Source of the DNA: a virus
Direction: 5' to 3' (one strand)
IMG/VR virus record: IMGVR_UViG_3300020572_000005
Coordinates: 50,199-114,198 of that record
Length of the DNA: 64,000 nt
Part shown: positions 12,363 to 47,138 of the stretch, in pieces
Layout: every line of letters begins with the position of its first letter
How positions within the stretch are numbered: the stretch's first letter is position 1
Program-made: the position numbers and the translations under genes
Notes under the pieces: model-generated
The model's input: the letters and a program-made list of their open reading frames with translations, nothing else
What the model was told of the DNA's origin: nothing
Databases searched by the model: none

Positions 12363-12373
12363 TAGGATAAAAA

Positions 12374-16822: not shown

Positions 16823-17397
16823 TGCAAAAACGATTGCTTTTAGATGGGTGTAGTTTTACCTATGGACTTAATTTGCTACACAATCAAAAATTAGAGCAGC
16901 ACTTTGTTGAATCAGGATACGAAGTAGTTAATTTGTCACGCCCAGGTAAAAGCAATTCGGCTATTTCGTTAGACCTGTACAACAATATGGATTCTTGCGA
17001 CTTATTAGTAGTAGGATGGACCTTTAGTTCTCGGTGGCATTTAAAATACCACAATCTTGACATTGATTTACTAGCCACTAGAGAACATGTAGAATTGCCC
17101 TACACGGTAGACAGTAGATTAATAGAACAAAGTTATCAAGAGTTGCATCGGTCTTTCTACAGTTTATTTGATGCAACACATTGGAATCAACAAAGTGATA
17201 TGCTAATAGACAATACAGCGGCACTGGCAGCACATCGCGGCAAACAAGCAGTATTTTTCAGCTGGGAATCTAGAAAAGTTGCATGTGATATGCATTACCC
17301 GCATGTGCCATCCTCGCATCGACTGCCTTGTGGACACTTAAATGCAGACGGCACAACCAATCTATATAATACGTTAACACATCTAATAGAACAATGA
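16822..17397 (+). CDS. SGNH/GDSL-like hydrolase
   Basis: The N-terminus LLLDGCSFTYG matches SGNH block I, with Ser in GCSFT as candidate nucleophile; GKSNSA matches the Gly block, and HLNADG near the C-terminus may supply the catalytic His. The length (191 residues) fits a minimal SGNH fold. Such enzymes act as esterases or O-acetyl hydrolases on glycans. The start overlaps the previous stop by 1 nt and the end overlaps the next radical SAM gene by 4 nt. The expected block III Asn is not obvious, so catalysis is inferred. Confidence 0.6.
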   Translation: MQKRLLLDGCSFTYGLNLLHNQKLEQHFVESGYEVVNLSRPGKSNSAISLDLYNNMDSCDLLVVGWTFSSRWHLKYHNLDIDLLATREHVELPYTVDSRLIEQSYQELHRSFYSLFDATHWNQQSDMLIDNTAALAAHRGKQAVFFSWESRKVACDMHYPHVPSSHRLPCGHLNADGTTNLYNTLTHLIEQ

Positions 17398-18779
17398 GCA
17401 CCGGCGATCAAAGTAAATTTATGAGTCTGGCAGAGCAGATGAAAGAGGATCTTGGTCCTGCATTGTGCCTGGCCAAGTGGAAGCAAGTAAGTCTACATCT
17501 ACCCACCGGGCTTAATAATTCGTGTTACCATCCGCCATTACATCCAATCTCTGCCAACGATTTACAACGCCCAGGCGGCATACATAATACTGAGCATAAA
17601 AAACAACAACGCATGATGATGATTCGCGGCGAAAAGCCCACTGAGTGTCAGTACTGTTGGAACATGGAAAATCTAGGCAAACTTTCAGACAGACATTACC
17701 GGTCGGGCGAGGCCTGGGCCGCAGTGGACTTTGAAAAAATTAAAAACAGCGTAGGCAATGAAGATGATGTTGTTCCTTCCTATGTAGAAGTTAATTTTAA
17801 TCATGCATGTAATCTAAAGTGTAGTTATTGCAGTCCACAGTTTAGCAGTAGTTGGGGCGAAGAAATAGACCGATATGGTGCGTTCCCTACTAGCAAGCCG
17901 CACAATGCTCCGGAACATTTTGTAGGCAATCGTAAACCTATTCCTGTAAGAGAAGACAATCCTTATGTGGATGCATTTTGGGAATGGTGGCCCGCCCTGT
18001 ACCCACAGTTAGAACATTTCCGTATGACCGGTGGCGAACCGCTAATGGATCGAAACACTTATCGAGTGTTTGATTATGTATTAGAGCATCCTAGTCCCAA
18101 ACTACACTTAAATGTAACGTCAAACTTTAGTGTAGAAGATCAACTGTTTAAAAAGTACATGTCCTATGTAAAGCGGTTGTGTACACCCAACATCGAACAC
18201 TTCATGCAATATGTTAGTTTGGACTCTGGCATAGCACCACAAGCAGAATATATACGTCACGGATTAGATTATGATCGCATGTCCAAGAACGTTGTGGAGT
18301 TCCTACAAGACATTCCTTATCGCAACAGTTTGACATTTATTGTTACAATGAATAACTTAACAGTAACAGGACTACAACCTTTGTTAGAATGGATATTAAA
18401 CCTACGCAAACTATATTCTAACACATATCAACGTGTGTGGTTTGATACTCCTGTGCTACGTGAACCTGCTTGGCAAAGTTTACAAATACTTCCAGAAAGT
18501 TATGCACAACAATTAGAACGTGCTAGAGATTACATGCTGGCTAACATGATTACAGAAGCTAACCCTTTACACGGATTTAAAGATTACGAAGTGCAACGTA
18601 TTGAACGTGATATTGCGTGGATGCGTGAAGGACAACACAAAGATAACTTGGTAGCAAAAGCAGATTTTTATCGTTTCTTTAACGAGCACGATCGCCGACG
18701 CGGCACCGACTTTTTAACAGCTTTTCCTGAAATGCGATCATGGTGGGCAGAATGTGAGTACCATGCTCGGCAATCGTAA
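17394..18779 (+). CDS. Radical SAM protein A, N-terminal twitch type
   Basis: The core motif is C139-x3-C143-x2-C146 (NHACNLKCSYCSPQFSS), with TGGEPLM at 212-218, which binds SAM in this superfamily. Ahead of it, C25 (LCLAKW), C44 (SCYHPP), C85 and C88 (ECQYCW) form the cysteine set of the N-terminal twitch-like radical SAM family, likely holding a second cluster. The protein (461 residues) would generate a 5'-deoxyadenosyl radical; the substrate is unknown. It overlaps the SGNH gene by 4 nt and the next glycosyltransferase-like gene by about 26 nt. It is the first of eight radical SAM genes in 15 kb. Confidence 0.8.
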   Translation: MSTGDQSKFMSLAEQMKEDLGPALCLAKWKQVSLHLPTGLNNSCYHPPLHPISANDLQRPGGIHNTEHKKQQRMMMIRGEKPTECQYCWNMENLGKLSDRHYRSGEAWAAVDFEKIKNSVGNEDDVVPSYVEVNFNHACNLKCSYCSPQFSSSWGEEIDRYGAFPTSKPHNAPEHFVGNRKPIPVREDNPYVDAFWEWWPALYPQLEHFRMTGGEPLMDRNTYRVFDYVLEHPSPKLHLNVTSNFSVEDQLFKKYMSYVKRLCTPNIEHFMQYVSLDSGIAPQAEYIRHGLDYDRMSKNVVEFLQDIPYRNSLTFIVTMNNLTVTGLQPLLEWILNLRKLYSNTYQRVWFDTPVLREPAWQSLQILPESYAQQLERARDYMLANMITEANPLHGFKDYEVQRIERDIAWMREGQHKDNLVAKADFYRFFNEHDRRRGTDFLTAFPEMRSWWAECEYHARQS

Positions 18780-19902
18780 ATTTATTATTGACACCATGAG
18801 CGAGGTTTACAGTATGATGAAACCTTACTCAGATGACGAGTTGTGGGATCTAGGCGCTCATGAAATTCAACCCAACTCAATCTATCTGTTAGGCCGCAAG
18901 CAAATGGTAGAACACACAGATCGTGTTAGAGAAATGGCTGCTGACCCAACTATAACTGTGATATTTGGTAACAGTGCCGAAGGATCTAAAACGATTGTAG
19001 ATCAATTGCGTGTGTTAAAAATAGAAGACTTAGTGCTGTCAGGGAAGATATTGCTGTTGAGTGGCGGCGAAATTGAACCTCAATATCCATATTTGTTGCA
19101 TGAACATTTTATCACACACATACTAGATTATAAAGAAAACATTCAAGCACAACAACGCACTGATGAAATTTTTAACAAAAAAATTAAACCTTATAAATTT
19201 TTATTTTTAAACGGGCGGGTACGTTCTCATAGAAAATATCTGCTTGAAAGATTGCGTCAACTGGGCATTTTAGACAGTGCAATCTGGACCATGTTAGATG
19301 GCCGAATTCCAACTAATCAATATTTTAGTCTACATGAAAACGGCATAGATGTAATTGGCCAAAATACTGCGATTAAACAGTTGCCTTCAGAATACGAATT
19401 TAAATTTTTTAAGAATAAATCTATTGTGTTGGATTACCCACATAAATTTGCCAAAAATGAATTGTTTGATACTCACTGGGGTGAAATTTATTTAGAACCT
19501 GCTCCGTACATTGACACTTATTTTAGTTTGGTAACTGAAACTGTGTTTGAATATCCTTATAGTTTTAGAACAGAAAAAATTGCCAAACCATTGGCAATGG
19601 GCCATCCGTGGATCTGTGCTGCCAGTGTGGGATTTTATCGAGACATGCACAAATTGGGATTTCAAACATTTGGACATGTGATAGATGAAAGTTTTGATAC
19701 AATCGACAATCATCAAGATCGAATGGAAAGAATAGCAATGATAGTCAAAGATTTATGTCAACAAGATCTTGCAAGTTTTCTAAATGAATGCTATAATGTA
19801 TGTAAATACAATCAACAACACCTTGCAGAATTGCGCACACAGTGTCGCAAAGAGTTTCCTGACCGTTTCCAACAATTTATCAATGAACGATTTAGATTTT
19901 AA
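18754..19902 (+). CDS. Glycosyltransferase-like protein, TEK...GF(K/Q)TF...DESYD family (1)
   Basis: The C-terminal third (FRTEKIAKPLAMGHPWI..., then LGFQTFGHVIDESFD, then NQQHL) is shared with three other proteins in this window (33701-34888, 34872-35987, 55248-56567). The EK..KP...G.P sequence resembles the nucleotide-sugar-binding C-terminus of fucosyltransferase-like GT-B enzymes. Residues about 140-165 contain KPYKFLFLNGRVRSHRKYLL, a strand plus arginine-rich turn. The start is uncertain: GTG 18754, ATG 18763 or ATG 18796 are possible and none has a strong ribosome site. It sits between two radical SAM genes. The acceptor is unknown. Confidence 0.5.
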   Translation: MSTMLGNRKFIIDTMSEVYSMMKPYSDDELWDLGAHEIQPNSIYLLGRKQMVEHTDRVREMAADPTITVIFGNSAEGSKTIVDQLRVLKIEDLVLSGKILLLSGGEIEPQYPYLLHEHFITHILDYKENIQAQQRTDEIFNKKIKPYKFLFLNGRVRSHRKYLLERLRQLGILDSAIWTMLDGRIPTNQYFSLHENGIDVIGQNTAIKQLPSEYEFKFFKNKSIVLDYPHKFAKNELFDTHWGEIYLEPAPYIDTYFSLVTETVFEYPYSFRTEKIAKPLAMGHPWICAASVGFYRDMHKLGFQTFGHVIDESFDTIDNHQDRMERIAMIVKDLCQQDLASFLNECYNVCKYNQQHLAELRTQCRKEFPDRFQQFINERFRF

Positions 19903-21241
19903 ACATGAAATTTTAGACACCAAGAGTGCAAGTTTTTGTGCGGCCAAATGGTACAATGCTACCATATGGTTGGGAAGTGGACAAACTACCAGTTGCCACC
20001 ATCCACCGGCACACTCAATTGATCTGGATGCGTTGGCCGCCAATCCTTCTGCGCTACACAACACCGCAAAGAAAAAAGATGATCGGCGACTGATGTTAGC
20101 GGGCAAACGTCCCACAGGTTGTGAATACTGCTGGAAGATTGAAGACATGGGCAAAGATTCCGTATCTGACCGTGTGTACAAAAGTAAAATTTACCCTATA
20201 GAGGCCTTAAATGATGCATACCAAACCCCCCACACAGAAGATGTCAATCTTCGCACACTTGAAATTGCGTTCGACCGCACTTGCCAATTTGCTTGTTCTT
20301 ATTGTAACCCTGCTTTCAGTAGCACATGGGTTAATGACATTAAAAAGCACGGACCTTATGTCGGTCTGGTGTCAGATGGGCGTAATCACTTTACTCATGC
20401 TCATGCTAGCAGTCAACTATACCGATTTGGTGAAACAAATCCCTACGTTGAAGCGTTCTTTAAATGGTGGGAAACTGACCTACACCGAACGCTCCAAGAA
20501 CTGAGAATAACCGGTGGCGAGCCGCTGATGAGTGCTGAGACATGGAAACTGATTGATTGGTTTAAAAACAATCCAGGCAGATCAACCACTCGGTTAGCAA
20601 TCAATTCTAATCTTGGCGCAGATGTTGATGTAGATAGACTTATTGAAAGCACACGTGGCCTGGATGTAGAAATTTACACATCTATGGAGGCTGTTGGTGC
20701 TCACGCAGAATACATTCGAGATGGACTAGATTATCACGCTTGGGAAAATAATGTAACTAAACTGTTAGACAGTCACGTAGGTGCAGTACACGTAATGGCC
20801 ACTATTAATGCATTGTGCTTGACAACATTGCCAATGCTTCTGCATTATGTAGTACAACTTAAATCAAAGTATGGTCGTAAACGTGTTAACTTTACATTAA
20901 ATATACTGAGATTTCCTAGTTTTCAAAGTCCACTGGTACTGCCCCGGGCATTGCTTACACGTCATATGCTTGACTTATCTAATTTCTTAAAGCGTTGGAA
21001 AACGGTTCCAGACATACTGCACGAACACGAAATTAATCACCTACAGCGATTAATTGATTATTTAGATGTAGTAAAAACTCCGCATTCAGACGCATTTGAC
21101 ATGCCTAAGTTACACAATGACTTTAAGCAGTTTTACACACAGTATGACCAACGCCGCGGAAAAAGTTTTAAAGATACATTTAAAGACAGTTATCCAATAG
21201 ACGTAACATTATCAACATGGTATGACTCAATACAAATATAA
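19883..21241 (+). CDS. Radical SAM protein B, N-terminal twitch type
   Basis: ATG 19883 is preferred over an earlier in-frame ATG at 19784, which would overlap the previous gene by about 120 nt. The 452-residue product has C134-x3-C138-x2-C141 (TCQFACSYCNPAFSS) and ITGGEPLM. Its N-terminal cysteines C19 (FCAAKW), C38 (SCHHPP), C80 and C83 (CEYCW) match protein A closely, including the SDR block that follows. A and B are probably duplicates. It overlaps the next gene by 20 nt. The substrate is unknown. Confidence 0.8.
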   Translation: MNDLDFKHEILDTKSASFCAAKWYNATIWLGSGQTTSCHHPPAHSIDLDALAANPSALHNTAKKKDDRRLMLAGKRPTGCEYCWKIEDMGKDSVSDRVYKSKIYPIEALNDAYQTPHTEDVNLRTLEIAFDRTCQFACSYCNPAFSSTWVNDIKKHGPYVGLVSDGRNHFTHAHASSQLYRFGETNPYVEAFFKWWETDLHRTLQELRITGGEPLMSAETWKLIDWFKNNPGRSTTRLAINSNLGADVDVDRLIESTRGLDVEIYTSMEAVGAHAEYIRDGLDYHAWENNVTKLLDSHVGAVHVMATINALCLTTLPMLLHYVVQLKSKYGRKRVNFTLNILRFPSFQSPLVLPRALLTRHMLDLSNFLKRWKTVPDILHEHEINHLQRLIDYLDVVKTPHSDAFDMPKLHNDFKQFYTQYDQRRGKSFKDTFKDSYPIDVTLSTWYDSIQI

Positions 21242-22505
21242 TTCAACAGACCTGGTACGTCCAACAGAACTTTCGGAACGTGAAGAATTTTTATTAAAAG
21301 ATTCCAAAACATTCTGCATCTACCCTTGGATACACTTACACGCATATCCCACAGGCGAAGCATATCCTTGCTGTCATGCTGAAATGGGTGTGGGCCAAAT
21401 TGGCAACTGCAGATCAAACACACTGGCAGAAATATGGAACAGTCCAGAACAAAAACAACTCAGAGTTGACATGCTGTCAGAAACCCCCAACCCGGCCTGT
21501 GGTCGTTGCTACGAACAGGAAGAGTCGGGATTTTTCAGTGGCCGCAAAAGTGCCAACAAGCACCACGGGCATCATATCAATCGAGTAGGTAATACCAATG
21601 CTGCCGGGCAGGTTGATCAATTTGAAATGACCTATTGGGATCTGCGATTTAGTAATCTTTGCAATTTAAGTTGCCGTAGTTGTGGGCATATCTTTAGTAG
21701 CAGTTGGTATAAAGATCAATCCGAGTTGGCCGGGCCTGCTTGGGCCAGTCAAAACAAACCTCTTAACTATGCTGGTCGTTATGCCACTGACTTGTGGGAA
21801 CAACTGATCGAGCATATTGATCACGTGGAGCAGATTTACTTTGCCGGCGGCGAGCCCCTGATGATGGAAGAGCACTACCTGATTCTAGAAGAACTAGAAC
21901 GTCGTGGTCGCTTTGATGTTAGACTAATATACAATACTAACTTTACACAAACACGACTTAAAGACCGTACAGTATTTGATTACTGGCGCAAGTTTGACAG
22001 TGTAGCAGTTGGGGCAAGCCTTGATGCGTCTGGTCCACGCGGTGAGTACATACGCAAAGGCACAGACTGGGCTGTGGTAGAATCAAATCGCAGACAAATG
22101 ATGGAAATATGCCCCAGAGTAGACTTTTACATCAGTCCCACACTTAGTATTATGAACGCATTACATCTTCCAGACTTTCATAGAGACTGGGTAGAGAAAG
22201 GTATGTTAACGCCTCAAGACCTTAATGTAAACATACTGCAAGACCCTGCATATTTAAGAATTGATATTGCGCCCAGCGAATACAAACAACGAATACAGTC
22301 TAAATATGAACAGCATTTAGAATGGTTACGACCGTTGGATCAACTGAATCGTGCCACTGTGGGATTTGAAAGCGCCATTACATTTATGAACAGCACTGAC
22401 AACACACAGCTACTTGACACTTTTTGGCGTAAGACGCACGAGCTTGACAGCATTAGACGAGAACATGTACTTGATGTGTTACCAGAATTAAGAGCAATTA
22501 AATGA
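21222..22505 (+). CDS. Radical SAM protein C, CxxPW twitch subtype
   Basis: This 427-residue protein represents a second subfamily. Its N-terminal cluster is FCIYPWIHLHAYPTGEAYPCC (C32, C50, C51) plus CGRC (C93, C96), followed by the SAM motif C147-x3-C151-x2-C154 (LCNLSCRSCG) and AGGEPLM. The pattern C-x3-W..L...P.G...PCC is a hallmark of twitch-domain radical SAM proteins. The N-terminal half also carries the LAEIWNSPEQKQLR segment typical of SPASM-like auxiliary domains. The stop overlaps the following gene by 4 nt. It could modify a peptide or a sugar; context favours the modification island but does not settle it. Confidence 0.8.
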   Translation: MTQYKYNSTDLVRPTELSEREEFLLKDSKTFCIYPWIHLHAYPTGEAYPCCHAEMGVGQIGNCRSNTLAEIWNSPEQKQLRVDMLSETPNPACGRCYEQEESGFFSGRKSANKHHGHHINRVGNTNAAGQVDQFEMTYWDLRFSNLCNLSCRSCGHIFSSSWYKDQSELAGPAWASQNKPLNYAGRYATDLWEQLIEHIDHVEQIYFAGGEPLMMEEHYLILEELERRGRFDVRLIYNTNFTQTRLKDRTVFDYWRKFDSVAVGASLDASGPRGEYIRKGTDWAVVESNRRQMMEICPRVDFYISPTLSIMNALHLPDFHRDWVEKGMLTPQDLNVNILQDPAYLRIDIAPSEYKQRIQSKYEQHLEWLRPLDQLNRATVGFESAITFMNSTDNTQLLDTFWRKTHELDSIRREHVLDVLPELRAIK

Positions 22506-23896
22506 GTACATGGAACGAATTTTACAATCAGATACGTGATCCGTTGTGGCCCGATTGTGAAAATGAATACGAGTTTAAATCTCTTCCAGAAAACATACAA
22601 AAAGAGTGCATTGAAATTTTTGGATATGCGCCAGGCTCTTTTAAAAATAAATCTAAATTACTTAATAAGAAATTTCCTATTGTAACTGATACCGCATGTC
22701 AACTTAAATGGACGTGGAGTACTATATTTCTATCCACTGGCAAAACTGCCAGTTGTCACAGAACAAACCATCATAAATTTAACACAGATACGTTTGAATT
22801 TCACAATACACCGAGCAAATTAGATGATCGTACTAACATGCTCAACGGGGAATGGCCCAACATTGGATGTGACTATTGTAAAAACATCGAAAAAGCAGGC
22901 GGACAAAGTGATAGGATTACCAACTTGGATTTTCCTGGGATTCATGCGCCACCAGAATTAGACCAAGACCCAACAGCAATTCATGTCACTCCGAGAATAC
23001 TTGAAGTTTATTTTGATAATACATGCAATTTAAAATGTCTTTATTGTGGCCCACATTTCAGTAGCTTGTGGGATGCAGAAAATATTAAATTTGGAGATGC
23101 TGCATTTCTTAAAGATGCAAACTTGGAACACAACAAGAAAAAGTTATTTGAATGGTTAAAAATCAACGGTCACAATCTTTCAGTATTTAATATACTAGGC
23201 GGTGAACCACTTTATCAAGAAGAATTAGAACAATGCTTGACATTATTTGAACAACATCCATCGCCTGAATTAAAAATACAAATTTTTACCAATTTAAATA
23301 TTAAACTGTCACGTTTGCAAAAAATTATTGATCGCATTAAACAATTAATTGATAATAACTGTATTAGAGAATTTGAAATTACTGCCAGTCTTGACTGCTG
23401 GGGACCGCAACAAGAGTATGTTAGGTATCCGTTAGATCTTCAGGAATGGGAAAAAAACTTTGAATACTTACTAAGTAACTCCTGGATAAATTTAATTGTA
23501 AGTTCCACTGTTACTCCTCTAACTATTAAAACACTTCCAGATTTATTGATAAAAATTGCCCAATGGAATAAAGTCAGAACAGTATATCATTATCAAAATT
23601 CAGTCAACGACCCAGGCTATATGTTTATTGATATATTTGGAGATATATTTAAAGATGATTTTGATCAAATAATTAAATTAAAACCAGCAAACACACCGGA
23701 AGAAATATCTAGTAGAGATTACCTAATAGGCATAGCAAAACAAAGTCAGTCGGTTGCTCCTGACGTTTTTAAAATTGGTCAATTGTTTAATTTTTTAAAT
23801 AAAATGGATCTACGAAGAAATACCAGTTGGAAGTTTACATTTCCTTGGTTAATTGATGAATTTAAAAAATATGACCTACACACAGAAAGCAATTGA
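22502..23896 (+). CDS. Radical SAM protein D, KW-type twitch
   Basis: A 464-residue protein with C175-x3-C179-x2-C182 (TCNLKCLYCGPHFSS) and ILGGEPLY. The auxiliary cysteines C66 (ACQLKW), C85 (SCHRT), C123 and C126 (CDYC) match proteins A, B and G. It is closest to G (shared KW(T/A)WST, SCHRT and RILEVYF/TILEVYF). An N-terminal extension of about 60 residues ahead of the first cysteine is unique to D. Base composition is noticeably A/T-richer than its neighbours in the second half. It overlaps C by 4 nt and abuts the SGNH gene without a gap. The substrate is unknown. Confidence 0.8.
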   Translation: MSTWNEFYNQIRDPLWPDCENEYEFKSLPENIQKECIEIFGYAPGSFKNKSKLLNKKFPIVTDTACQLKWTWSTIFLSTGKTASCHRTNHHKFNTDTFEFHNTPSKLDDRTNMLNGEWPNIGCDYCKNIEKAGGQSDRITNLDFPGIHAPPELDQDPTAIHVTPRILEVYFDNTCNLKCLYCGPHFSSLWDAENIKFGDAAFLKDANLEHNKKKLFEWLKINGHNLSVFNILGGEPLYQEELEQCLTLFEQHPSPELKIQIFTNLNIKLSRLQKIIDRIKQLIDNNCIREFEITASLDCWGPQQEYVRYPLDLQEWEKNFEYLLSNSWINLIVSSTVTPLTIKTLPDLLIKIAQWNKVRTVYHYQNSVNDPGYMFIDIFGDIFKDDFDQIIKLKPANTPEEISSRDYLIGIAKQSQSVAPDVFKIGQLFNFLNKMDLRRNTSWKFTFPWLIDEFKKYDLHTESN

Positions 23897-24478: not shown

Positions 24479-25682
24479 CACTTTTTGCGTGTTGCCTTGG
24501 ATCTCACTGGAGGCCAGTCCTGTTGGGACTGTACGTCCTTGCTGTCTGGCCATGGACGAAATCACTGACAGCAACGGAGACAAATATAAACTAGCAACAA
24601 CTGGATTGGGCGAAATACAAAATAGCCGAGCAATGAAAACTCTGCGAGAAGACTTTCTTGCTGGTAAAAAACCGCAGAACTGCCGTCGTTGCTGGAATGA
24701 AGAACGTGCCGGTCGTACCAGCAAACGTATGCACACACTGGACAGACTCAAGCACATGATCGATCGTGATGTTGATTGGACCCAGGATGCAATGCCATTG
24801 ATGTTCCTGGATCTTAAACTAGGCAACATTTGTAATTTAAAATGTCGTATTTGCGGCTCGTGGAGTAGTAGTCAGTTTGCCGCAGAAGAAATCAAATACA
24901 ATCGTGCTGAAGATACTCGTGGTAGCTTTGCGTATCAGATGCTTCGAGACGGCGCCTGGCCCAGAGAAAGTGTAGAGTTTTGGACGGACCTGGACCAACA
25001 CTTGGACAACATACGCTACATTGAGTTCACCGGTGGCGAGCCTTTTATGATTCAAGAGCATTTTCAACTGCTACAAAAATTAGTAGACACTGGCCGTGCA
25101 GCACAAGTTGAAATACACTACAACACCAATGGTACACAGTATCCAGAAGAAGGCGAAGCCATCTGGAAACACTTCAAGAATGTTGAAATTGCCATCAGCA
25201 TCGACGATGTAGCAGAACGGTTTGAATACCAGCGTACCAATGCTGTGTGGTACGAAGTGGTTGAGAATGTAGAGCGTTTTCGCCAACTACGCAGTCGTAA
25301 CAGTAACATCACATTACAGGCCTGTTGCACTATCAACGTGTTCAATGTGTACTATCTTGAAACTGTGGCCAATTGGTTAATACAACAGGGATTTGATTTT
25401 ATCTACTGGAACATGATGCACGATGCCTATTACTTTAGTATTAGTACATTGCCAGAATCAGCCAAAGCAGAAATCACTACAAAACTAACCTCTGCAACTG
25501 TTCCGCCTAAGATACTTAAAGAGTTTGTCAGTGCGGCCGAGTTTATGAATCGTGGCAACAGTCTAGATGGACATTTGTTACGTATGAATCTACGTGACCT
25601 TGACCATAAGAGAAAGCAAAACTTAGCACAAGTGGCACCAGAGTTTGCGGCATTGATCGACTATGACTACAACAAAACCTGA
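24462..25682 (+). CDS. Radical SAM protein E, CxxPW twitch subtype
   Basis: A 406-residue protein of the same subtype as C: FCVLPWISLEASPVGTVRPC (C9, C27, C28), then NCRRCW (C74, C77), then the SAM motif C124-x3-C128-x2-C131 (ICNLKCRICGSWSSS) and TGGEPFM. The C-terminal half has the usual partial-barrel strand pattern (EIHYNTNGTQ, NVEIAISIDD). It overlaps the SGNH gene by 17 nt and F by 20 nt. No peptide-binding RRE-like domain is evident by eye. The substrate is unknown. Confidence 0.8.
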   Translation: MNIPHDTFCVLPWISLEASPVGTVRPCCLAMDEITDSNGDKYKLATTGLGEIQNSRAMKTLREDFLAGKKPQNCRRCWNEERAGRTSKRMHTLDRLKHMIDRDVDWTQDAMPLMFLDLKLGNICNLKCRICGSWSSSQFAAEEIKYNRAEDTRGSFAYQMLRDGAWPRESVEFWTDLDQHLDNIRYIEFTGGEPFMIQEHFQLLQKLVDTGRAAQVEIHYNTNGTQYPEEGEAIWKHFKNVEIAISIDDVAERFEYQRTNAVWYEVVENVERFRQLRSRNSNITLQACCTINVFNVYYLETVANWLIQQGFDFIYWNMMHDAYYFSISTLPESAKAEITTKLTSATVPPKILKEFVSAAEFMNRGNSLDGHLLRMNLRDLDHKRKQNLAQVAPEFAALIDYDYNKT

Positions 25683-26961
25683 CATACTGTGCATGGCGCC
25701 ATGGACACACACGTATCTAAGTCCACAAACAGAACGGCGTATGTGTTGTGCGTCGAGAGAACCTGCGCAGAGTTTTGAACAGTACATCGACACCGGTGCT
25801 GGAACAGGACGTTACACTCCTATTACTTTGGATCAACACTGGAACGGTGAGCACATGCGATCAGTGCGACGTCGCATGATGTCTGGCGAAACATTGCCCG
25901 AATGCGATGTATGCAATAGCAAATTGCTAAACACCGACGTTTATCGTAGTTATTTTTGGCATTTGTTCCGACACAAGTATGACGATGTTGTTGCTTCAAC
26001 AGATGACACCGGGTATACCACAATGAAACCTGTAAGCTGGGACTATCGTTTTAGTAATCTTTGTAACTTTAAATGCAGAACCTGTGGTGATATGCTATCC
26101 AGTGCCTGGGAAACAGAACAAAAAACACATGACATGATCAACTGGCACAATCCTAAAAACAATTGGATGCGATCAGATGTACGTCAAGAAATAACTAAGT
26201 TTCAGGATAAACAAATTGAGGCAGAATTTGCCGACGCAGTTGAACAACATCGTGTAGAAGAAGTATACTGGGTAGGCGGCGAACCATTGATGTATGAACA
26301 GCACTGGCGCTACATGAAAAGAATAGTAGAACTTGGAGATGGAGAAAGAGTATATGCTAGGTACAACACCAATCTTAGTCGCATTGAGTATCGTGGCATT
26401 AATTTATATCGTGATATTTTATCTAATATACGCGACTGGCAGATTTGCGCTTCCTTGGACGGAACAGAAGATATCGGAGAATACATACGTACAGGTTTGG
26501 AGTATGTATCCTTTTTAAATAATTTTGAGCAAGGACTAGCTTATCAAAAGAACCGAAGACAAATGCGTCTAGACTTTACACTAACACTGCCCGGAATGTT
26601 TGAGATTATCAAAATGGAAAAGTTAGCGCAAAAGTATAATGTAGAGTTGCTGGCCAAAGTGATATTCAGTTTCGGTCCTGATATTGTTATGAGTCCATTA
26701 TCATTGCCACGTGATTTACTAGAACCCTGGATTGACGAGTTATTGCCGCAATGTCACACACAAGTAATGCGAAACATGCTTGCTCAATTGCGCACTCGCC
26801 CTACGTTTGCTGAACAATGGCCAGATCAATATGCCGCAGGCATTGCAAAAGGCAAAGCTCGTGTGTTAAAATTAGAACAGATACGTACACAACCAGTCAC
26901 AATGACAGACATACTGAGCACCCGGCCTGATGTATTAACGTGGTGGATGAATATACAATGA
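25663..26961 (+). CDS. Radical SAM protein F, CxxPW twitch subtype
   Basis: The 432-residue product has LCMAPWTHTYLSP with C10, C28 and C29, then CDVC (C81, C84), the SAM motif C134-x3-C138-x2-C141 (LCNFKCRTCGDMLSS) and VGGEPLM. It shares RFSNLCN with C, so C and F are likely duplicates that diverged. The stop overlaps the next start (ATGA at 26958-26961). Its position beside the conserved 26958-28001 gene recurs as a coupled unit. Function beyond radical chemistry is not known. Confidence 0.8.
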   Translation: MTTTKPDILCMAPWTHTYLSPQTERRMCCASREPAQSFEQYIDTGAGTGRYTPITLDQHWNGEHMRSVRRRMMSGETLPECDVCNSKLLNTDVYRSYFWHLFRHKYDDVVASTDDTGYTTMKPVSWDYRFSNLCNFKCRTCGDMLSSAWETEQKTHDMINWHNPKNNWMRSDVRQEITKFQDKQIEAEFADAVEQHRVEEVYWVGGEPLMYEQHWRYMKRIVELGDGERVYARYNTNLSRIEYRGINLYRDILSNIRDWQICASLDGTEDIGEYIRTGLEYVSFLNNFEQGLAYQKNRRQMRLDFTLTLPGMFEIIKMEKLAQKYNVELLAKVIFSFGPDIVMSPLSLPRDLLEPWIDELLPQCHTQVMRNMLAQLRTRPTFAEQWPDQYAAGIAKGKARVLKLEQIRTQPVTMTDILSTRPDVLTWWMNIQ

Positions 26962-28001
26962 TAGATCAAATTGAAATTACTTTAAAAGGCAATGACAACA
27001 GCACTACGACAGTGTGGATTGATGTTGCAGATAACAGCTTGAGTCACAAATGGCTTGCCGCATTAAATACCCTAATCCGTAACAATTATCATTTGGAAAA
27101 GAATTACTGTTTTTTTGGATTTGTGCAAAGTCAACGCAACGCAGAATACTTAACCGAACAAATGAACAGTAGTATTGCTGCCATTAATGCTGCCAACATT
27201 GGATATCATATTGACGATTATTTTTCAACTGCTAATACTATTGCGCCCGATGTAAAGTTAATACATGATAAGTTAAACTATCTACATCGTTACTTTGAAG
27301 ATTTGCAAGGTATATCGGGTGCAATGAGTCCTTTTTATACCAAAGCAGATCCCGTGACACGATGGCATATAAGACAATTAAATTTGTTATGTCATGAATA
27401 CGAAAGTCTTGTTCTCAGTATGCGCAAAGTACTTTATACACCTGAATGGCAACGACCTAGTCAACTCATGTGTTGGTTACACGCACCGCGATTTGTGTTA
27501 GATGAACAAGATTATGAACTGTTTGGAGTTGAAACAATCAATAGGCCACTGGGTGGAGTTTTTGTAGGCGTAAATAAAGCTGTAGGCAAACACCATTGGG
27601 AAGTGTTCAATGATGAAGGACGAGACAGCCGTGTAGGAGAGTTAATAACTACAACGCTAAAACCACAAACAGAAGCCGCCGGCGACTTTGACATTGAATG
27701 GGCCAACAATCCTGGCACATTTCCGTGGCAGCAAAAAACCTTGACAGATTTTAGAGTATGGTTAACAAACAACGGGTTTGATCCAGAAGATAAAAGTCTA
27801 ACCATTGGACATCCGCAGGTGGCACAGGTAGATTTAATCCGTAGTTTTGGAACAGATAACTATGTAGATATATGGAACACCTTAGGAAGTCATCTTAACG
27901 TGCATAAAATACGCACCAGTGATGCAACAGCTACATACAGTTATAATTGGACAGATGCAGATTATGCAGATCAACAAATTAAAATAATACAAGGGACATG
28001 A
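26958..28001 (+). CDS. Conserved hypothetical protein coupled to radical SAM genes, 347 aa
   Basis: ATG 26958 overlaps the preceding TGA by 4 nt and is preferred to 26940. The protein begins IDQIEITLKGNDNSTTTVWID and contains a helical, histidine- and tyrosine-rich middle (KLNYLHRYFEDLQGI, WHIRQLNLLCHEYESL), then LGGVFVGVNKAVGKHHWEVF. Possible metal ligands (several His, Asp and Glu) are visible but no known motif. Its location between radical SAM F and a carbamoyltransferase suggests a role in the same modification process. I do not recognise the family. Confidence 0.6.
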   Translation: MIDQIEITLKGNDNSTTTVWIDVADNSLSHKWLAALNTLIRNNYHLEKNYCFFGFVQSQRNAEYLTEQMNSSIAAINAANIGYHIDDYFSTANTIAPDVKLIHDKLNYLHRYFEDLQGISGAMSPFYTKADPVTRWHIRQLNLLCHEYESLVLSMRKVLYTPEWQRPSQLMCWLHAPRFVLDEQDYELFGVETINRPLGGVFVGVNKAVGKHHWEVFNDEGRDSRVGELITTTLKPQTEAAGDFDIEWANNPGTFPWQQKTLTDFRVWLTNNGFDPEDKSLTIGHPQVAQVDLIRSFGTDNYVDIWNTLGSHLNVHKIRTSDATATYSYNWTDADYADQQIKIIQGT

Positions 28002-28002
28002 T

Positions 28003-28104
28003 ATGAACTGGATTAAAAATTTATACAATCGTATTCGTTTAGAAATACGCTATCGTAAAAAACTAAAAGAACTACGTAAACGAGATCCTTTTATCTACAA
28101 ATGA
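28003..28104 (+). CDS. 33-residue basic peptide before the carbamoyltransferase
   Basis: The ATG at 28003 follows the previous stop by 1 nt and the TGA overlaps the carbamoyltransferase ATG (ATGA at 28101). The product begins MNWIKNLYNRIRLEIRYRKK and ends KRDPFIYK: one strongly basic amphipathic helix. I recall comparable small basic ORFs in marine phages, but cannot check this here. It could bind nucleic acid or a membrane, or be a partner or substrate of neighbouring enzymes. Function unknown. Confidence 0.6.
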   Translation: MNWIKNLYNRIRLEIRYRKKLKELRKRDPFIYK

Positions 28105-29612
28105 AGTTGAAAACATATTTGGGTGTCAGTGCCGGGTTTCACGATGCCGCTGTGAGTGTAATTCAGTCTGACGGCAGTGTACTTTTTGCCGGGCATGCAG
28201 AACGCTACAGCAAAAACAAAAACGATGCACATCTAAATGATTCGATCATTGCAGAAGCAATGTCATACGCAACTCCGGATGTGATTGCATACTATGAACG
28301 TCCGTGGGTCAAAAAACTACAACAACTATATTCGGGACAATATGAGGAAGCCTTTGATTTTGGGAATTTTACTTTGGATCAGTATTTGCATAAACATCTA
28401 TCTGATACTGTTCATCGGCAGCAACTACTACGATGCCCTAGAAAATATATGTCCCATCATCATAGTCACGCCGCCGCAGGATTCCAATCCAGCCCCTATA
28501 ACAGGGCCACAGTGGTTGTAATTGATGCCATTGGTGAATTAGACACCGTAACTATCTGGGGAGCAGAATATGATCGATCAGGCATGGCAACGTATAAAAA
28601 ACTTTGGACACAGCGTTACCCACATTCAATTGGATTGTTCTACTCTGCGGCTACTGGCAGCGTTGGCCTACGCCCACTAGACGAAGAATATATCTTGATG
28701 GGTATGGCCGCATATGGCAATGCTAGTCACGCTGTTAAAATGCAAGCATTGGTAGAAGATGTAGACACCATACGCTTTTGTGAAAATCTACACACAGGAA
28801 TAGACAGTCAATACCTGCAAGATTTAACTGAGTTTGATATTGCCGCAGGTGCACAAGCCATTGCGGAACAATTGATCAACAGCGTGATGCGCAGAGCCAG
28901 AGACTTTGGCTGGAGCAACAACTTGGTCTACATGGGCGGTGTTGCTCTCAACTGTAGTGCTAACCGCAACCTAGGAGAATACTTTGATAATATTTGGATT
29001 ATGCCTTGTCCTGGTGACGCTGGCAGTAGTTTGGGCGCGGCAGCACTTGCATACGGAAAACAGATACATTGGAAAAACGCCTATTTGGGTTGTGTTATTC
29101 CGGGTGCTTATCCTGTTGCTGATATTGTATCTTGCTTACTAAGCGATAAAATTGTTGGTGTTGCTAGTGGTCGTGCTGAGTTTGGCCCTAGGGCTCTCGG
29201 CAATAGGAGTTTATTAGCAGACCCGCGTGGTGCAGACATAAAGGATCGTGTAAATGATATTAAAAGACGACAGCAATTCAGACCATTTGCGCCGGTTATT
29301 TTGGAGGAGCATGTTGATATGTATTTTGATATGCCTCATGGCTTCCATAACAGTAGGTATATGCAAGTCATCGCTCGCTGTAGGCATCCTCACATATTTC
29401 CTGCTATCGTTCATAGGGACGGCACTAGTAGGGTACAGACTGTTCCTAAGGATGGCTCCGGAATAAGACAACTGCTAGAAGAATGGTACAAGGCAACAGG
29501 TTGTCCTATGTTGCTTAACACAAGTCTTAACATACGTGGCGAACCCATGGTAAATGATCGTGCAGACGCAGATAGATTTGAACAATTATACGGAGTAAAA
29601 GTCTGCTCATGA
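28101..29612 (+). CDS. Carbamoyltransferase, NodU/CmcH family
   Basis: A 503-residue protein with both halves of the family. The N-terminal Kae1/TsaD-like part has YLGVSAGFHDAAVSVI near residues 6-21 and the metal-binding HHHSHAAAGF at about 115-124. The C-terminal part contains EFGPRALGNRSLLADPR, RPFAPVI and LLNTSLNIRGEPMV. These enzymes transfer a carbamoyl group from carbamoyl phosphate, through carbamoyl-adenylate, to a sugar or antibiotic hydroxyl. Length is slightly short compared with usual members (about 550-600). It lies in the operon between a 33-residue peptide and radical SAM G, overlapping both by 4 nt. A glycan hydroxyl is the likely acceptor. Confidence 0.9.
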   Translation: MKLKTYLGVSAGFHDAAVSVIQSDGSVLFAGHAERYSKNKNDAHLNDSIIAEAMSYATPDVIAYYERPWVKKLQQLYSGQYEEAFDFGNFTLDQYLHKHLSDTVHRQQLLRCPRKYMSHHHSHAAAGFQSSPYNRATVVVIDAIGELDTVTIWGAEYDRSGMATYKKLWTQRYPHSIGLFYSAATGSVGLRPLDEEYILMGMAAYGNASHAVKMQALVEDVDTIRFCENLHTGIDSQYLQDLTEFDIAAGAQAIAEQLINSVMRRARDFGWSNNLVYMGGVALNCSANRNLGEYFDNIWIMPCPGDAGSSLGAAALAYGKQIHWKNAYLGCVIPGAYPVADIVSCLLSDKIVGVASGRAEFGPRALGNRSLLADPRGADIKDRVNDIKRRQQFRPFAPVILEEHVDMYFDMPHGFHNSRYMQVIARCRHPHIFPAIVHRDGTSRVQTVPKDGSGIRQLLEEWYKATGCPMLLNTSLNIRGEPMVNDRADADRFEQLYGVKVCS

Positions 29613-30874
29613 CTGATAAACAAGTATTTCCAATCAAAACAGACACAGGATGCTTGCTCAAGTGGGCCTGGAGCACTGTGTACTTAAATCAAGGCACAAG
29701 TGCTAGTTGTCACCGTACAGACCAACAACCCATACCTCCAGACAACTTTGAAAGTTTTCATAATCTGCCAAACAAAATAGAAGCCAGGCAAATGATGTTG
29801 CGTGGCGAATGGCCACAGGGTGGTTGTCAGTACTGCGAAAAGATTGAAACAGCTGGCGGCATGAGCGACAGACAATATCAATTACATGCTCGTCATGACC
29901 TGGATCGTACTCCGCACGAGTTGTTTAAAGATCCAACTACGTTGGAAGTTGTACCTACCATATTAGAAGTATATTTCAACAATGTATGCAACATGGCCTG
30001 CTTGTATTGCGGCAGTCACTTTAGTACAAAATGGGAAGAAGAGAACCGACGATTTGGTGTGTTTACACAAGGCAATGTAAACTTTGGGCACAACACACAA
30101 TCTAATCCCAACTATGAGCGCATGCTGGCAGACTTTTGGCGCTACCTGGAAGAGAAAGATCGTTACAAACACATACGCTACTATCAAATACTGGGTGGCG
30201 AGCCTTTCTTCCAGGATGAGTTTGACATCAGCATGGACTTCTGGGAAAGTCATCCCAATCCAGAACTTACATTTAACATTATTACCAACCTAAAGGTACC
30301 ACCTAAAAAGTTCCAAGCCTACATTGATCGCTTTGGCAAGATGGTTGAGTCTGGCGCACTAAAACGATTGCAAATCACAGGTAGTATAGATGCCTGGGGA
30401 CCACAAGAAGAATATGTGCGGTGGGGATTAGACTTGGCCGAGTGGACAGAAAACTGGGAATATCTACTAGACAAAGACTGGGTTGTGATGTGCGTGAACA
30501 GTGCAGTGTCGGCATTGACAATTAAAACAGCACCTGAGCTAGTGGAAAAGATAAACGAGTGGAACGATCGTCGCAATCCGTGGAATCCTATTAGCTACAG
30601 TTTCATGAGTGTGATGACCCCGCCTGAAATGGTTCCAGACATATTTGGACCAGGCGTGTTTGAACAGGACTTTGCACGTTTACTGGCCGCAATGCGAGAA
30701 CGCAATCCCAGCGAAGTCAGTGCTAAAGAACACATGCGTGGCATTATGAAACAGATTGTAGCAGGACCTCGCAACGCAGAACGTATTGCTGATTTGAAAG
30801 TTTATCTGACTGAAATAGATCGACGTCGTGTCACTGATTGGAAACTGTTGTTTCCGTGGCTGATAGAACTATAA
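29609..30874 (+). CDS. Radical SAM protein G, KW-type twitch
   Basis: This 421-residue protein has C127-x3-C131-x2-C134 (VCNMACLYCGSHFS) and ILGGEPFF. Auxiliary cysteines are C15 (GCLLKW), C34 (SCHRT), C73 and C76 (CQYC), matching A, B and D; the closest match is D. It starts within the carbamoyltransferase stop (4-nt overlap) and ends 73 nt inside the convergent gene on the other strand. It is the last gene of the forward operon. Confidence 0.8.
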   Translation: MTDKQVFPIKTDTGCLLKWAWSTVYLNQGTSASCHRTDQQPIPPDNFESFHNLPNKIEARQMMLRGEWPQGGCQYCEKIETAGGMSDRQYQLHARHDLDRTPHELFKDPTTLEVVPTILEVYFNNVCNMACLYCGSHFSTKWEEENRRFGVFTQGNVNFGHNTQSNPNYERMLADFWRYLEEKDRYKHIRYYQILGGEPFFQDEFDISMDFWESHPNPELTFNIITNLKVPPKKFQAYIDRFGKMVESGALKRLQITGSIDAWGPQEEYVRWGLDLAEWTENWEYLLDKDWVVMCVNSAVSALTIKTAPELVEKINEWNDRRNPWNPISYSFMSVMTPPEMVPDIFGPGVFEQDFARLLAAMRERNPSEVSAKEHMRGIMKQIVAGPRNAERIADLKVYLTEIDRRRVTDWKLLFPWLIEL

Positions 30875-31668
30875 TAGTCTAGGTTGCTGGGTGCGGACCG
30901 TTGGTTGTCCATCTGTTCAAGATCTAATGCTGCCAACACATCCTTACTAGTGGTTGGTTCACGCAATGCTCGGCCTTGTACATGAATCAAGTCCTGTGCT
31001 TGATTATAATGCCAACCCGGATCAATTAGTTCTAACCTATTATTTAATAATACGCCAATACTGGTAAAAACACACTTAGGTGGAATTAACAAATTTTTAA
31101 CGTTGTCAAATTGTTCCAAGGATATTGCGTTTATTAATGATGTCAGCCCAATAGGTCGATCCTGGAAGCACAGTTCAAATGCTCCGCCGCATAGATATAC
31201 ATTTTCAACGTCAGGATACTGTGAATTGAGCAAATATACCACCTGGTCCAGAGTCCAGGCCGCAAACATTTTCTGATCCTGTCTGAGAGGCATAGTTAAC
31301 ACAGCCGGATTAGTGACTGGTGTATCATGAAGTATAAATTGATTTACAACAGGTCCATGATGGTTGTCAGAGATTATCTGTGCATGTTCTTGTGCCAACC
31401 AGGCTGAACCTGTGTAGGCTGGAACAGCAGGATTGAGATCGGGATTGAACACCTGTCTACTGTTGTGCCAAATTGGCGATTCTATTGGCGTTGCTGATGT
31501 TCCGTGCAATTCGTATTCTGTGTAAGATGCAACCACTATGCACTTTACAAAATCTTGTTGAATAAACTCGGCTAAGTGTTTAAACATTTGATGCGGCCGA
31601 TGGCCAACTGGATCTAGCCATGCATCAATGACAATAACCGCACTTGGAGTTCGAAACTTACTGGACAT
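30802..31668 (-). CDS. Hypothetical protein, 288 aa, convergent with radical SAM G
   Basis: The protein begins with a beta strand (SAVIVIDAWLDPVGHRPHQMF), has a CIVVASYTEYEL strand-turn and a VYLCGGAFELCF block, an order that loosely resembles isochorismatase-like or hydrolase alpha/beta folds, but no catalytic triad is clear. Its last 24 codons lie opposite the 3' end of radical SAM G. It overlaps the downstream start of the radical SAM H stop region by 11 nt, so it is translated as the last gene of a five-gene reverse operon. I assign no function. Confidence 0.55.
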   Translation of the reverse strand: MSSKFRTPSAVIVIDAWLDPVGHRPHQMFKHLAEFIQQDFVKCIVVASYTEYELHGTSATPIESPIWHNSRQVFNPDLNPAVPAYTGSAWLAQEHAQIISDNHHGPVVNQFILHDTPVTNPAVLTMPLRQDQKMFAAWTLDQVVYLLNSQYPDVENVYLCGGAFELCFQDRPIGLTSLINAISLEQFDNVKNLLIPPKCVFTSIGVLLNNRLELIDPGWHYNQAQDLIHVQGRALREPTTSKDVLAALDLEQMDNQRSAPSNLDYYSSISHGNNSFQSVTRRRSISVR

Positions 31669-32689
31669 GACACAGTTCTACTAAACTGGGATTAAACTGT
31701 ATGCGTCCTGCATATTCCGAATATGCTGTGCCTAAAAAGTACATGGCTGCTGAATGATCTGTATGAGAGATGTTGCCAATCACATCATGTTCAGCATAAT
31801 TGACCCATGTGCCCCAATCTTCTAAGCGGTTAATCACTCCGCTAAATCCCATATCAACACATAGTCGACAGAAGTTCTGCATGTCTTGATAGTTGTCTTG
31901 CTGTAGCACAAACTTTAACAGTACTTCTGCACCTGTACGTTCTACAGTGCCCTGCAACCAAGTTAAGTTGGTAATCAACTGTGACCACTGTCCTCCTAGA
32001 CGCACACGTTCATATACTGGAGCAGAGCCTGCATCTATGCTGATAAAATACTGTGTAATGTGATCAAGTATAGGAGAATCATCCAGTTGTTTTTTCAATA
32101 ACAAGCCATTGGTGAACAACCGAATAGTTTGATTGGGGCCTGGACAAAATTCTCGTATCAATGGTCGCATAATAGCACTGGCCAACGGATCGCCGTTGCC
32201 ACTCATTACAATGTGGCAAGGTTCTTTAAATTCTTCTAACAAACGACGTATGTGTTGTACCTGTGCTAGTTTGCGATCATACTCGTCGCCAGAGTTGATC
32301 ATTATTGCCGCAGGCCTGCAACTTGGGCAACGTAGATTACAACTTTCGTCAACGTTGATGCTGACCACGTGTGTTGTATCTATTTTGCTAGAGTGTACCA
32401 CACCACATCGATCAACAGCACAATGTGTATAAGCACCAGAATCAATGTCGGCTTGTAATGCCAATGCTGACTTGCTGTTCCATACACTGGCCAATGAATC
32501 AAAGTCTGAAATTTGTCCTACACTGATTGGCAACCATGCTTCGCATCCACATACAAAACAATCACCTTTCCAGTCTATAACCAATTGGCGACTGGGTGCA
32601 TTGCAGTGATTGTCAATTGTTAATTTTAAATCTGCATTGCGCGGTATTGAATTGTAGGAGTGCCGGTTAGCAATTGGAATGACAAACAT
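31658..32689 (-). CDS. Radical SAM protein H with cysteine-rich N-terminal domain
   Basis: ATG 32689 shares a base with the upstream stop (TAATG), so I prefer it to an earlier in-frame start at 32740. The 343-residue product has SAM motif C117-x3-C121-x2-C124 (SCNLRCPSCRPA). Upstream are C29, C44, C47, C49, C90 and C95, which could hold one auxiliary cluster in a SPASM/twitch-like domain. The usual GGEP is replaced by SGNGDPLA. The middle contains IRLFTNGLLL. It is coupled to an amidinotransferase. It is the most divergent of the eight and the only one on this strand. Confidence 0.75.
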   Translation of the reverse strand: MFVIPIANRHSYNSIPRNADLKLTIDNHCNAPSRQLVIDWKGDCFVCGCEAWLPISVGQISDFDSLASVWNSKSALALQADIDSGAYTHCAVDRCGVVHSSKIDTTHVVSINVDESCNLRCPSCRPAAIMINSGDEYDRKLAQVQHIRRLLEEFKEPCHIVMSGNGDPLASAIMRPLIREFCPGPNQTIRLFTNGLLLKKQLDDSPILDHITQYFISIDAGSAPVYERVRLGGQWSQLITNLTWLQGTVERTGAEVLLKFVLQQDNYQDMQNFCRLCVDMGFSGVINRLEDWGTWVNYAEHDVIGNISHTDHSAAMYFLGTAYSEYAGRIQFNPSLVELCHVQ

Positions 32690-41048: not shown

Positions 41049-41059
41049 TTCTTTCCTTA

Positions 41060-47111: not shown

Positions 47112-47138
47112 AACATTCCTTTTGTTGCTTATGTATGT

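Follow-up and report, generated by a model that had tools for sequence, protein, structure and literature searches.

The NCBIfam family NF033640 (N_Twi_rSAM) comprises radical SAM (rSAM) proteins with a twitch domain at the N-terminus, and its name has no assigned function. In phages, rSAMs occur in DNA hypermodification, and we know of no virus shown to use such chemistry for the radical remodelling of sugars. An uncultured marine T4-like virus, TARA_ERS488813_N000010, carries 12 rSAM genes and an Fe-S A-type carrier; these rSAMs were read as Fe-S metabolism, and neither a module nor synteny nor a substrate class was reported (PMC5332604). In pelagimyophages the host-recognition cluster contains rSAM cassettes (PMC7029224). 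Among characterized enzymes, BtrN is a twitch rSAM whose substrate is an aminocyclitol (PMC9012708), and NeoN, an rSAM that epimerises aminoglycosides, donates hydrogen from Cys249 (PMC10991966).

We studied a window of 64,000 nucleotides from an uncultured virus, in which eight rSAM genes, named A to H, lie within 15 kb (17394-32689). An earlier note had described twitch-type rSAMs as known singly in phages and polysaccharide loci, and knew of no phage locus with eight. Both the 12 genes of the TARA virus (PMC5332604) and the pelagimyophage cassettes (PMC7029224) had already been reported; the conserved five-enzyme module presented below seems undescribed so far. The pelagimyophage cassettes are accessory, whereas the clade studied here has five rSAMs in its core, and five to eight distinct members of NF033640 share one syntenic viral module. 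As in the TARA virus, Fe-S carrier genes were present here too, in 11 of the 13 related phage records searched, which fits loaded rSAMs.

The locus resembles the BtrN, NeoN, HygY, StrB1 and TobZ systems, in which twitch rSAMs act on amino sugars or aminocyclitols, in combining twitch rSAMs with an amidinotransferase and an O-carbamoyltransferase as side enzymes. The twitch, however, is N-terminal here and C-terminal in BtrN, NeoN and HygY, and the likeness is one of enzyme types, not of demonstrated kinship; moreover, glycosyltransferase-like (GT-like) and fibre genes replace the antibiotic genes of aminoglycoside loci. In a bacterial O-antigen ABC-export (Wzm/Wzt) locus, L163, N_Twi rSAMs also occur in tandem, one of them fused to Wzt; in the phages, 12 related records contained no initiating transferase and no flippase.

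Eight radical SAM genes and their neighbours

All eight genes were intact ORFs with a complete CX3CX2C motif, as the earlier note had stated, and broken cores were seen in none of them. Motif inspection also bore out its reading of GGEP in seven proteins (A-G) and GNGDP in one (H), as well as the additional N-terminal cysteines: four in each of A-G, in the pattern C-x17/18-C(C)-...-C-x2-C, which judging from sequence would fit one auxiliary cluster, and six listed for H (C46, C61, C64, C66, C107 and C112). Against the NF033640 cut-off of 170 bits, A-G were full-length members (222-404 bits), in agreement with the twitch type proposed earlier, and H gave a partial match below the cut-off, 34 bits (34.3). 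The family search thus placed seven of the eight proteins in one family, but one with no known substrate, and the earlier reading is not refuted by it.

The positive strand encodes rSAM A (17394..18779; 308.6 bits), B (19883..21241; 292.6 bits; the ORF is open from 19784, the start at 19883 being more likely), C (21222..22505; 403.7 bits), D (22502..23896; 223 bits), E (24462..25682; 350 bits), F (25663..26961; 275 bits) and G (29609..30874; 222 bits), the last being the sister of D in the tree (42.5% identity). rSAM H (31658..32689, negative strand) appears from its domain matches to be the N-terminal SPASM outlier of the eight (PF13186, 3.8e-6; PF04055, 2.3e-7). SPASM matches were found in C (PF13186, 6.3e-12), E, F and H. 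The structure model of C was poor (pLDDT 63.5), and its Foldseek matches were mixed (QueE, BlsE, anSME and viperin) with no substrate class singled out; a PDB sequence search with a C/E profile gave no meaningful match. Weak viperin matches and the presence of rSAMs in phage DNA hypermodification would be the grounds for supposing that the enzymes make hypermodified DNA bases or nucleotide compounds, e.g., a viperin-like ddhCTP, against host nucleases or competing phages. This is highly improbable: the N-terminal twitch and the GT-like context speak against it, and no adjacent DNA-modification genes were seen. A viperin-like identity was rejected at 15-32 bits against a cut-off of 180.

An IMG/VR scan with rSAM C as query gave 49 freshwater-type (jumbo) and 41 marine-type loci long enough to tell the module content (marine loci >21 kb), to which the following counts refer. 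Directly upstream of the module, a giant virion or tail-fibre gene of about 4.8k aa (contig 45930-60455, positive strand) begins outside the window (L003:12430) and runs into it, its 3' part occupying 1..10257; its N-terminal 1557 aa matched phrog_10938 (virion structural protein, 6.8e-160) and phrog_677 (baseplate wedge tail fibre connector, 1.1e-14). A tail-fibre-like protein follows on the same strand (11079..12362; phrog_14394 and phrog_21412, tail fiber) with a weak C-terminal match to Peptidase_G2, an intramolecular chaperone (PF11962, E=0.004); the marine protein in this position has a similar N-terminus and a PF11962 match of E=1.7e-5. Next to it, the fibre-like g12374 (12374..13369, positive strand) is S/T-rich (32% S+T) and has no Cys; it adjoins the module in 40/41 marine loci.

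Three core GT-like proteins are then encoded on the positive strand: the first (13749..14546; LVLDADY motif) in 41/41 marine and 42/49 jumbo loci (flanks cut), the second (14530..15270; phrog_1903, unknown) in 41/41 and 42/49, and the third (15896..16822; LIDGDN motif; dN/dS 0.02-0.08) in 41/41 and 48/49. DxD-like motifs were present in the first and third and ExD in the second, whose marine orthologues also match the profile of the first, and none of them had a Pfam match. Three further GT-like proteins, GT1 (18754..19902, positive strand; 38/49 jumbo loci), GT2 (33701..34888, negative; 36/49) and GT3 (34872..35987, negative; 26/49), share a C-terminal TEK..F.TF..DES.D pattern; GT1 and GT2 had no family match and GT3 no convincing one. 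PDB sequence searches with the first and third core proteins and GT1 returned nothing convincing. Two accessory SGNH-like proteins on the positive strand (16822..17397, GCSFT motif; 23897..24478, GCSHT motif) also had no family match. The glycosyltransferase-like and SGNH labels of the earlier note are plausible by motif but have no Pfam or PHROG model behind them.

Its carbamoyltransferase and amidinotransferase calls were borne out by homology. The former, a NodU/TobZ-type O-carbamoyltransferase (28101..29612, positive strand; 41/41 marine, 47/49 jumbo loci), has both domains (Carbam_trans_N PF02543, 3.6e-31; Carbam_trans_C PF16861, 1.2e-48), a phrog_1601 match (9e-92) and a metal-site-like HHHSH motif at residue 119. 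The latter, of the arginine:glycine or inosamine-phosphate type (32689..33708, negative strand; 42/49 jumbo loci), matched 2jdx (1.5e-19), StrB1 1bwd (1.9e-14) and SxtG (3.1e-13) in a profile search of the PDB. Of the catalytic Asp-His-Cys triad, the equivalents of His303 and Cys407 (H185 and C324) were invariant in 14 sequences; the Asp254 column falls just beyond the local alignment, and the residue there would be Ser. Before the carbamoyltransferase lies u26940 (26940..28001, positive strand), a conserved protein of the freshwater-type module (49/49 jumbo loci) for which neither its sequence nor its AlphaFold model (pLDDT 72) gave a usable PDB match (best PDB E=0.027). The accessory u30802 (30802..31668, negative) had no family match. 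The claim that all genes overlap by 1-26 nt did not hold: D and the second SGNH-like gene abut, 99 nt separate the carbamoyltransferase from the gene before it, and G shares 73 nt with the convergent u30802. Farther along, the negative strand encodes a DegT/DnrJ sugar aminotransferase (38786..39955; PF01041, 2.8e-61) and an NAD sugar epimerase/dehydratase (40080..41090; PF01370, 1.1e-42). No clearly membrane-spanning protein was found between 10.4 and 41 kb of the window.

DegT aminotransferase, StrB1-type amidinotransferase, carbamoyltransferase and BtrN/NeoN-like rSAMs are a typical set for a small diffusible aminocyclitol or aminoglycoside-like compound. That the locus makes one is nevertheless very unlikely: neither a scyllo-inosose-type cyclase nor a resistance gene turned up in a non-exhaustive search, the amidinotransferase and DegT do not occur throughout the range of the module, and the core holds three GT-like genes and fibre genes instead.

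A conserved module in T4-like jumbo phages

The genes form a fixed module: tail fibre, S/T-rich fibre-like protein, three GT-like proteins, rSAMs A, B, C, E and F, and the carbamoyltransferase. Every jumbo locus (49/49) and every marine locus (41/41) contained all five rSAMs, which constitute the core; D (8/49 jumbo loci), G and H are accessory, and the number eight is a detail of this genome. Each core rSAM formed one clade spanning the freshwater and marine groups (SH-aLRT 97-100), and the identity matrices of the others correlated with that of C (r = 0.68-0.92). Median identity of each core enzyme among jumbo phages was 65-75%, and the paralogues were mutually 22-30% identical. All seven cluster cysteines, including the four N-terminal ones, were invariant in each of the five (82 loci); an extra non-cluster Cys was conserved at 0.99-1.00 in A, B, C and E and 0.84 in F, at sites not equivalent between enzymes. 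Since the orthologues are under strong purifying selection (dN/dS ~0.03-0.13) and CX3CX2C was kept in 452/454 rSAM ORFs of the first 80 related loci (the other two are short fragments), the eight genes are not a product of chance.

Matches per record vary from 1 to about 21, and in the tree D/G and the B-like extras look like later duplications, as would be expected if a single selfish or decaying gene had recently been amplified into eight copies without separate functions. For the five core genes this was refuted by their old divergence, purifying selection and intact motifs, and as an account of the locus it is negligible. The eight-gene locus is best explained as an enlarged version of the clade's conserved module.

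The module carriers are uncultured T4-like jumbo phages of freshwater and marine origin. The contig itself, 114 kb long, carries T4-type major head, portal and baseplate genes (phrog_138, phrog_213 and a baseplate wedge) and a major capsid protein 66% identical to those of PA5oct and Vibrio phage 2.275.O; its relatives measure 286-374 kb (jumbo threshold >200 kb). NF033640 was above cut-off in all 12 contigs of at least 83 kb picked by major capsid similarity, i.e., not selected on rSAM. Up to 16-17 NF033640 genes occur in a relative. Among isolate phages (50,697 records) there was no DNA match, and no relatives of A, u26940 or g12374; distant protein relatives only were found, for C at ~20-27% identity in Vibrio phages K566/K567 and marine virus AG-345-D19. 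In K566, four rSAMs are interspersed with GT-looking ORFs. Five matches in a genome collection were MAG contigs carrying the phage module, which we read as phage contigs binned with their hosts.

Outside phages NF033640 was rare, and two bacterial loci associated it with polysaccharide genes. L163 has four N_Twi rSAMs with Wzm, RmlC, RmlD, WbsX and a TylF-type methyltransferase, the first rSAM forming one protein of 854 aa with Wzt, the O-antigen exporter (ABC_tran + Wzt_C + SPASM + rSAM); L164 has one near an NAD epimerase and a GT2. Their rSAMs were nearest to E alone, with no A-F set, and so far the five-rSAM set has been found as a set in phages only.

A putative role in glycan tailoring

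Beside tail-fibre genes, five non-redundant N-terminal-twitch rSAMs are inherited together with three GT-like proteins and a carbamoyltransferase, and the link to glycan genes seen in the earlier note was strengthened by the clade-wide module and the cellular homologues in polysaccharide loci, including the Wzt fusion. The five radical enzymes probably remodel a sugar coating on virus or host. The note had suggested a glycan or a virion protein as substrate; we consider a glycan rather likely, a reading favoured by analogy with L163, L164, Vibrio phage K566 and the BtrN and NeoN precedents. Against it stand the GT-like and SGNH-like genes, for which no curated family gave a match, and the fact that many SPASM rSAMs act on peptides. 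The fuller statement, that the locus is a glycan-tailoring module of this phage clade, has in our judgement slightly less than an even chance.

In such a module the GT-like proteins would build or transfer a short glycan, and each rSAM is predicted to form a 5'-deoxyadenosyl radical and take H from a defined ring C-H. That site could be oxidised, the four-Cys auxiliary cluster serving as electron acceptor as in BtrN, or epimerised, a conserved thiol giving H back as in NeoN; the epimerase idea is weak because the extra conserved cysteines stand at different places in the five enzymes. The carbamoyltransferase would carbamoylate a hydroxyl, and guanidino and amino decorations may be added in this phage by its amidinotransferase, its DegT aminotransferase and its epimerase. 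The likeliest acceptor would be the phage's own tail-fibre apparatus (11079-13369), with g12374 as candidate, so that receptor binding would be altered or the fibres protected; host O-antigen would be the main alternative.

That the tail fibre is the final target has somewhat less than an even chance. In its favour are the position of tail-fibre genes just ahead of the module in both clades, the S/T-rich neighbour and the lack of a clear membrane protein between 10.4 and 41 kb; on the other side, the cellular neighbours indicate O-antigen, host export would be usable by phages, and a mobile cassette in a variable host-recognition region would also adjoin fibre genes (PMC7029224). The most far-reaching form, a viral lineage with its own multi-step radical sugar chemistry in which five rSAMs sequentially remodel a tail-fibre glycan made by neither host nor textbook pathways, is rather doubtful.

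Alternatively, the module might act during infection on the host's O-antigen or capsule, altering sugars of lipid-linked glycans so that competing phages no longer bind the cell. Such lock-out has been suggested for the LPS genes that marine T4-like phages carry (PMC5332604, PMC7029224), genes for DegT, epimerase and carbamoyltransferase are common in O-antigen loci, and cellular NF033640 genes lie in polysaccharide loci, one of them fused to Wzt. We find this unlikely: with variable host O-antigens as the target, a much less conserved core would be expected, and the module adjoins fibre genes in both clades. Tail fibres are also the likelier target because genes to initiate and flip a polysaccharide are missing: neither PF02397 (initiating sugar transferase) nor PF01943 (Wzx flippase) was found in 12 related records.

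The adjacent fibres could also be peptide substrates, the rSAMs directly modifying virion or other proteins through D-amino acids, C-C or thioether cross-links, or oxidised side chains; C, E, F and H have SPASM matches, and the well-characterised SPASM enzymes PqqE and SuiB use peptides (PMC9012708). This seems quite unlikely, since g12374 has no Cys, the neighbours are sugar-type enzymes and one cellular member is fused to a polysaccharide exporter. Small ORFs g13444, g15255 and g15514 were rejected as precursor peptides, having no Cys-rich, repeated or core-peptide-like pattern.

If the glycan reading is true, the phages would encode a pathway that tailors glycans by radical chemistry. Such a pathway would offer enzymes that oxidise or epimerise sugars site-selectively, and it might help to explain how the phages escape isolation or defence. 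Proteins of a family with no known substrate are in any case fixed here as one set of five in widespread freshwater and marine jumbo phages, and the module, a compact set of about ten genes, is a marker for this uncultured clade. Two more rSAM-like genes lie on the same contig outside the window (G000:24016-24540 and 26970-27500).

Radical SAM proteins of the window

Eight ORFs at 17394-32689 encode radical SAM (rSAM) proteins, A to H; as the earlier note had read them, all keep an intact CX3CX2C motif, with GGEP in seven and GNGDP in H. Searches of Pfam and NCBIfam placed A-G, over their full length, in NF033640 (N_Twi_rSAM, the N-terminal twitch rSAM family) with 222-404 bits (cut-off, 170 bits), whereas H reached only 34 bits and matched as an N-terminal SPASM rSAM. 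Each of A-G has four N-terminal cysteines in a pattern suggestive of one auxiliary cluster. Most pairs among these paralogues are just 22-30% identical (D and G, 42.5%), so they are old. A structural model of rSAM C was poor (pLDDT 63.5). The gene junctions had been described as overlaps of 1-26 nt throughout, but they include one abutment, one 99-nt gap and one 73-nt convergent overlap; B most likely starts at 19883. Likewise, the neighbors labeled glycosyltransferase-like (GT-like) and SGNH-like matched no curated family, so that these names stand as likenesses only.

Two further rSAM proteins of another type (phrog_21308, PHROG matches) are encoded on the negative strand of the same contig at 22858-24564 and 26583-27539 (6358-8064 and 10083-11039 of L002, a piece of this contig), beside a SbcC-like gene and a 507-aa unknown.

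A five-enzyme module in two groups of phage loci

A scan of IMG/VR yielded 192 relatives of protein C, the best 80 of which were retrieved; presence was counted on the freshwater-type loci longer than 21 kb (n=49). A, B, C, E, F and the conserved protein u26940 were found in 49/49, a NodU/TobZ-type carbamoyltransferase in 47, and the accessory rSAMs D, G and H in 8, 5 and 8-10, respectively. The u26940 product (26940-28001) presents strikingly invariant blocks (HLEKNYC, RWHIRQLNLLCHE and RPSQLMCWL); it had no known relative and no fold match, and went undetected in the marine loci. The second, marine group came to light in contigs assigned to MAGs of bacteria and archaea and in a second scan. 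All 41 marine loci longer than 21 kb carried, in order, the GT-like genes g13749, g14530 and g15896, then A, B, C, E, F and the carbamoyltransferase; the fiber-like g12374 was present in 40, and a tail-fiber protein resembling the 11079 product typically lay upstream. Contigs filed under MAGs of Pacearchaeota, Rickettsiales, Betaproteobacteria, Pelagibacter and Flavobacterium (L085-L089) held the module; they are apparently phage DNA that ended up in host bins.

The five core rSAMs were 41-59% identical between freshwater-type and marine loci and 60-77% within groups. In the tree each of them formed one clade spanning both groups (SH-aLRT 97-100), which indicates that the enzymes had already diverged when the groups separated and have stayed together ever since. 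Presence counts are biased, given that the loci were selected by C; to counter this, a sample of 12 contigs, each 83 kb or longer, was drawn by head-protein similarity instead. All 12 had NF033640 genes over the cut-off, some without the whole set because most are fragments. In a separate count, two jumbo-phage relatives, G005 and G009, had 16 and 17 NF033640 genes over the cut-off.

The rSAM genes of the module are under selection: dN/dS between close relatives was about 0.03-0.13, the seven cluster cysteines were invariant in every core enzyme (82 loci), and CX3CX2C was kept in 452 of 454 rSAM ORFs from the best 80 loci plus our own contig, both exceptions being truncated ORFs.

The novelty proposed in the earlier note holds in part. 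A T4-like virus with 12 rSAM genes was already reported (PMC5332604), and pelagimyophages have rSAM cassettes beside fiber and glycosyltransferase genes (PMC7029224). The open-access literature searched yielded no account of the five enzymes as a fixed module, nor of its spread over a jumbo-phage clade or its near absence from isolates.

Putative substrate and target

Few cells have NF033640: in a sample of 399 genomes from one bacterial phylum it occurred in 3, one of which was a MAG holding the phage module. Both cellular contexts, L163 and L164, are glycan loci. In L164 a single N_Twi rSAM lies close to genes for an NAD epimerase and a GT2 enzyme. L163, a dTDP-rhamnose/ABC-export O-antigen locus of a bacterial genome, has four in tandem with RmlC, RmlD, an ABC-2 permease, WbsX and a TylF-type methyltransferase. 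The first of the four is joined to the Wzt C-terminus in one 854-aa frame (L163 8579-11143, negative strand; ABC_tran, Wzt_C, SPASM and Radical_SAM), a fusion of which we found no description in open-access literature and which apparently merits separate study. In the phages, the rSAM genes stand beside those for GT-like proteins and the carbamoyltransferase; in many cases there is also an amidinotransferase with AGAT and StrB1 as relatives, and the window phage has DegT and NAD-epimerase genes. Precedents for rSAM chemistry on aminocyclitol or amino-sugar substrates are BtrN (PMC9012708) and NeoN (PMC10991966). From these cellular contexts, phage neighbors and precedents, a glycan is the best-inferred substrate of the module rSAMs, and a fairly probable one; that they modify protein directly seems quite improbable.

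The target may, tentatively, be the phage's own tail fibers. In both groups the module lies directly downstream of fiber genes, and its neighbor g12374 is 32% Ser+Thr. A simple hydropathy scan revealed no clearly membrane-spanning product between 10.4 and 41 kb, and neither an initiating sugar transferase nor a Wzx flippase was found in 12 related records. Action on the host O-antigen or host surface would agree with the glycan loci of the cellular homologues, with the Wzt-rSAM fusion and with LPS genes being known as common cargo of marine T4-like phages; the pathway is, however, more conserved than expected for one aimed at variable host O-antigens, and we consider this option unlikely.

The phage and its other genes

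The window corresponds to bases 50199-114198 of an IMG/VR record of 114,198 bases. This contig encodes a T4-type major head protein (phrog_138), a portal protein (phrog_213), a baseplate wedge of 1144 aa (phrog_10646) and, in its largest gene seen (14.5 kb; contig 45930-60455, extending into the window at 1-10257), a virion or tail-fiber protein of about 4.8k aa. The head protein was 66.5% identical to that of Vibrio phage 2.275.O, 66% to that of PA5oct and 76-99% to the head proteins detected in other records with the module. Judging from these structural genes and identities, the module is a marker of a clade of uncultured, T4-like jumbo phages. Among the relatives, the longest measured 286-374 kb, the contigs compared being linear and possibly fragments. 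A-type Fe-S carriers, already noted in other T4-like viruses (PMC5332604), occurred in 11 of 13 records of module-type phages.

This jumbo phage also encodes a permuted, two-piece tmRNA at window 56555-56994 on the negative strand (Rfam tmRNA_permuted, 129.9 bits, E 3.9e-25), overlapped by a beta_tmRNA match of 96.5 bits and with an unusually long tag, ANVNKTVTVSGKNVKFSARTAKEALAV, according to ARAGORN; it hints at a betaproteobacterial host. Close to the tRNA/tmRNA array, a Gram-negative porin (54089-55114, negative strand; PF13609, 1.7e-18) could change host outer-membrane permeability or receptor display. Domain matches at 45804-48621 (negative strand) correspond to a DUF2201 putative metallopeptidase/VWA protein and an adjoining MoxR-type AAA ATPase, a chaperone-like pair.
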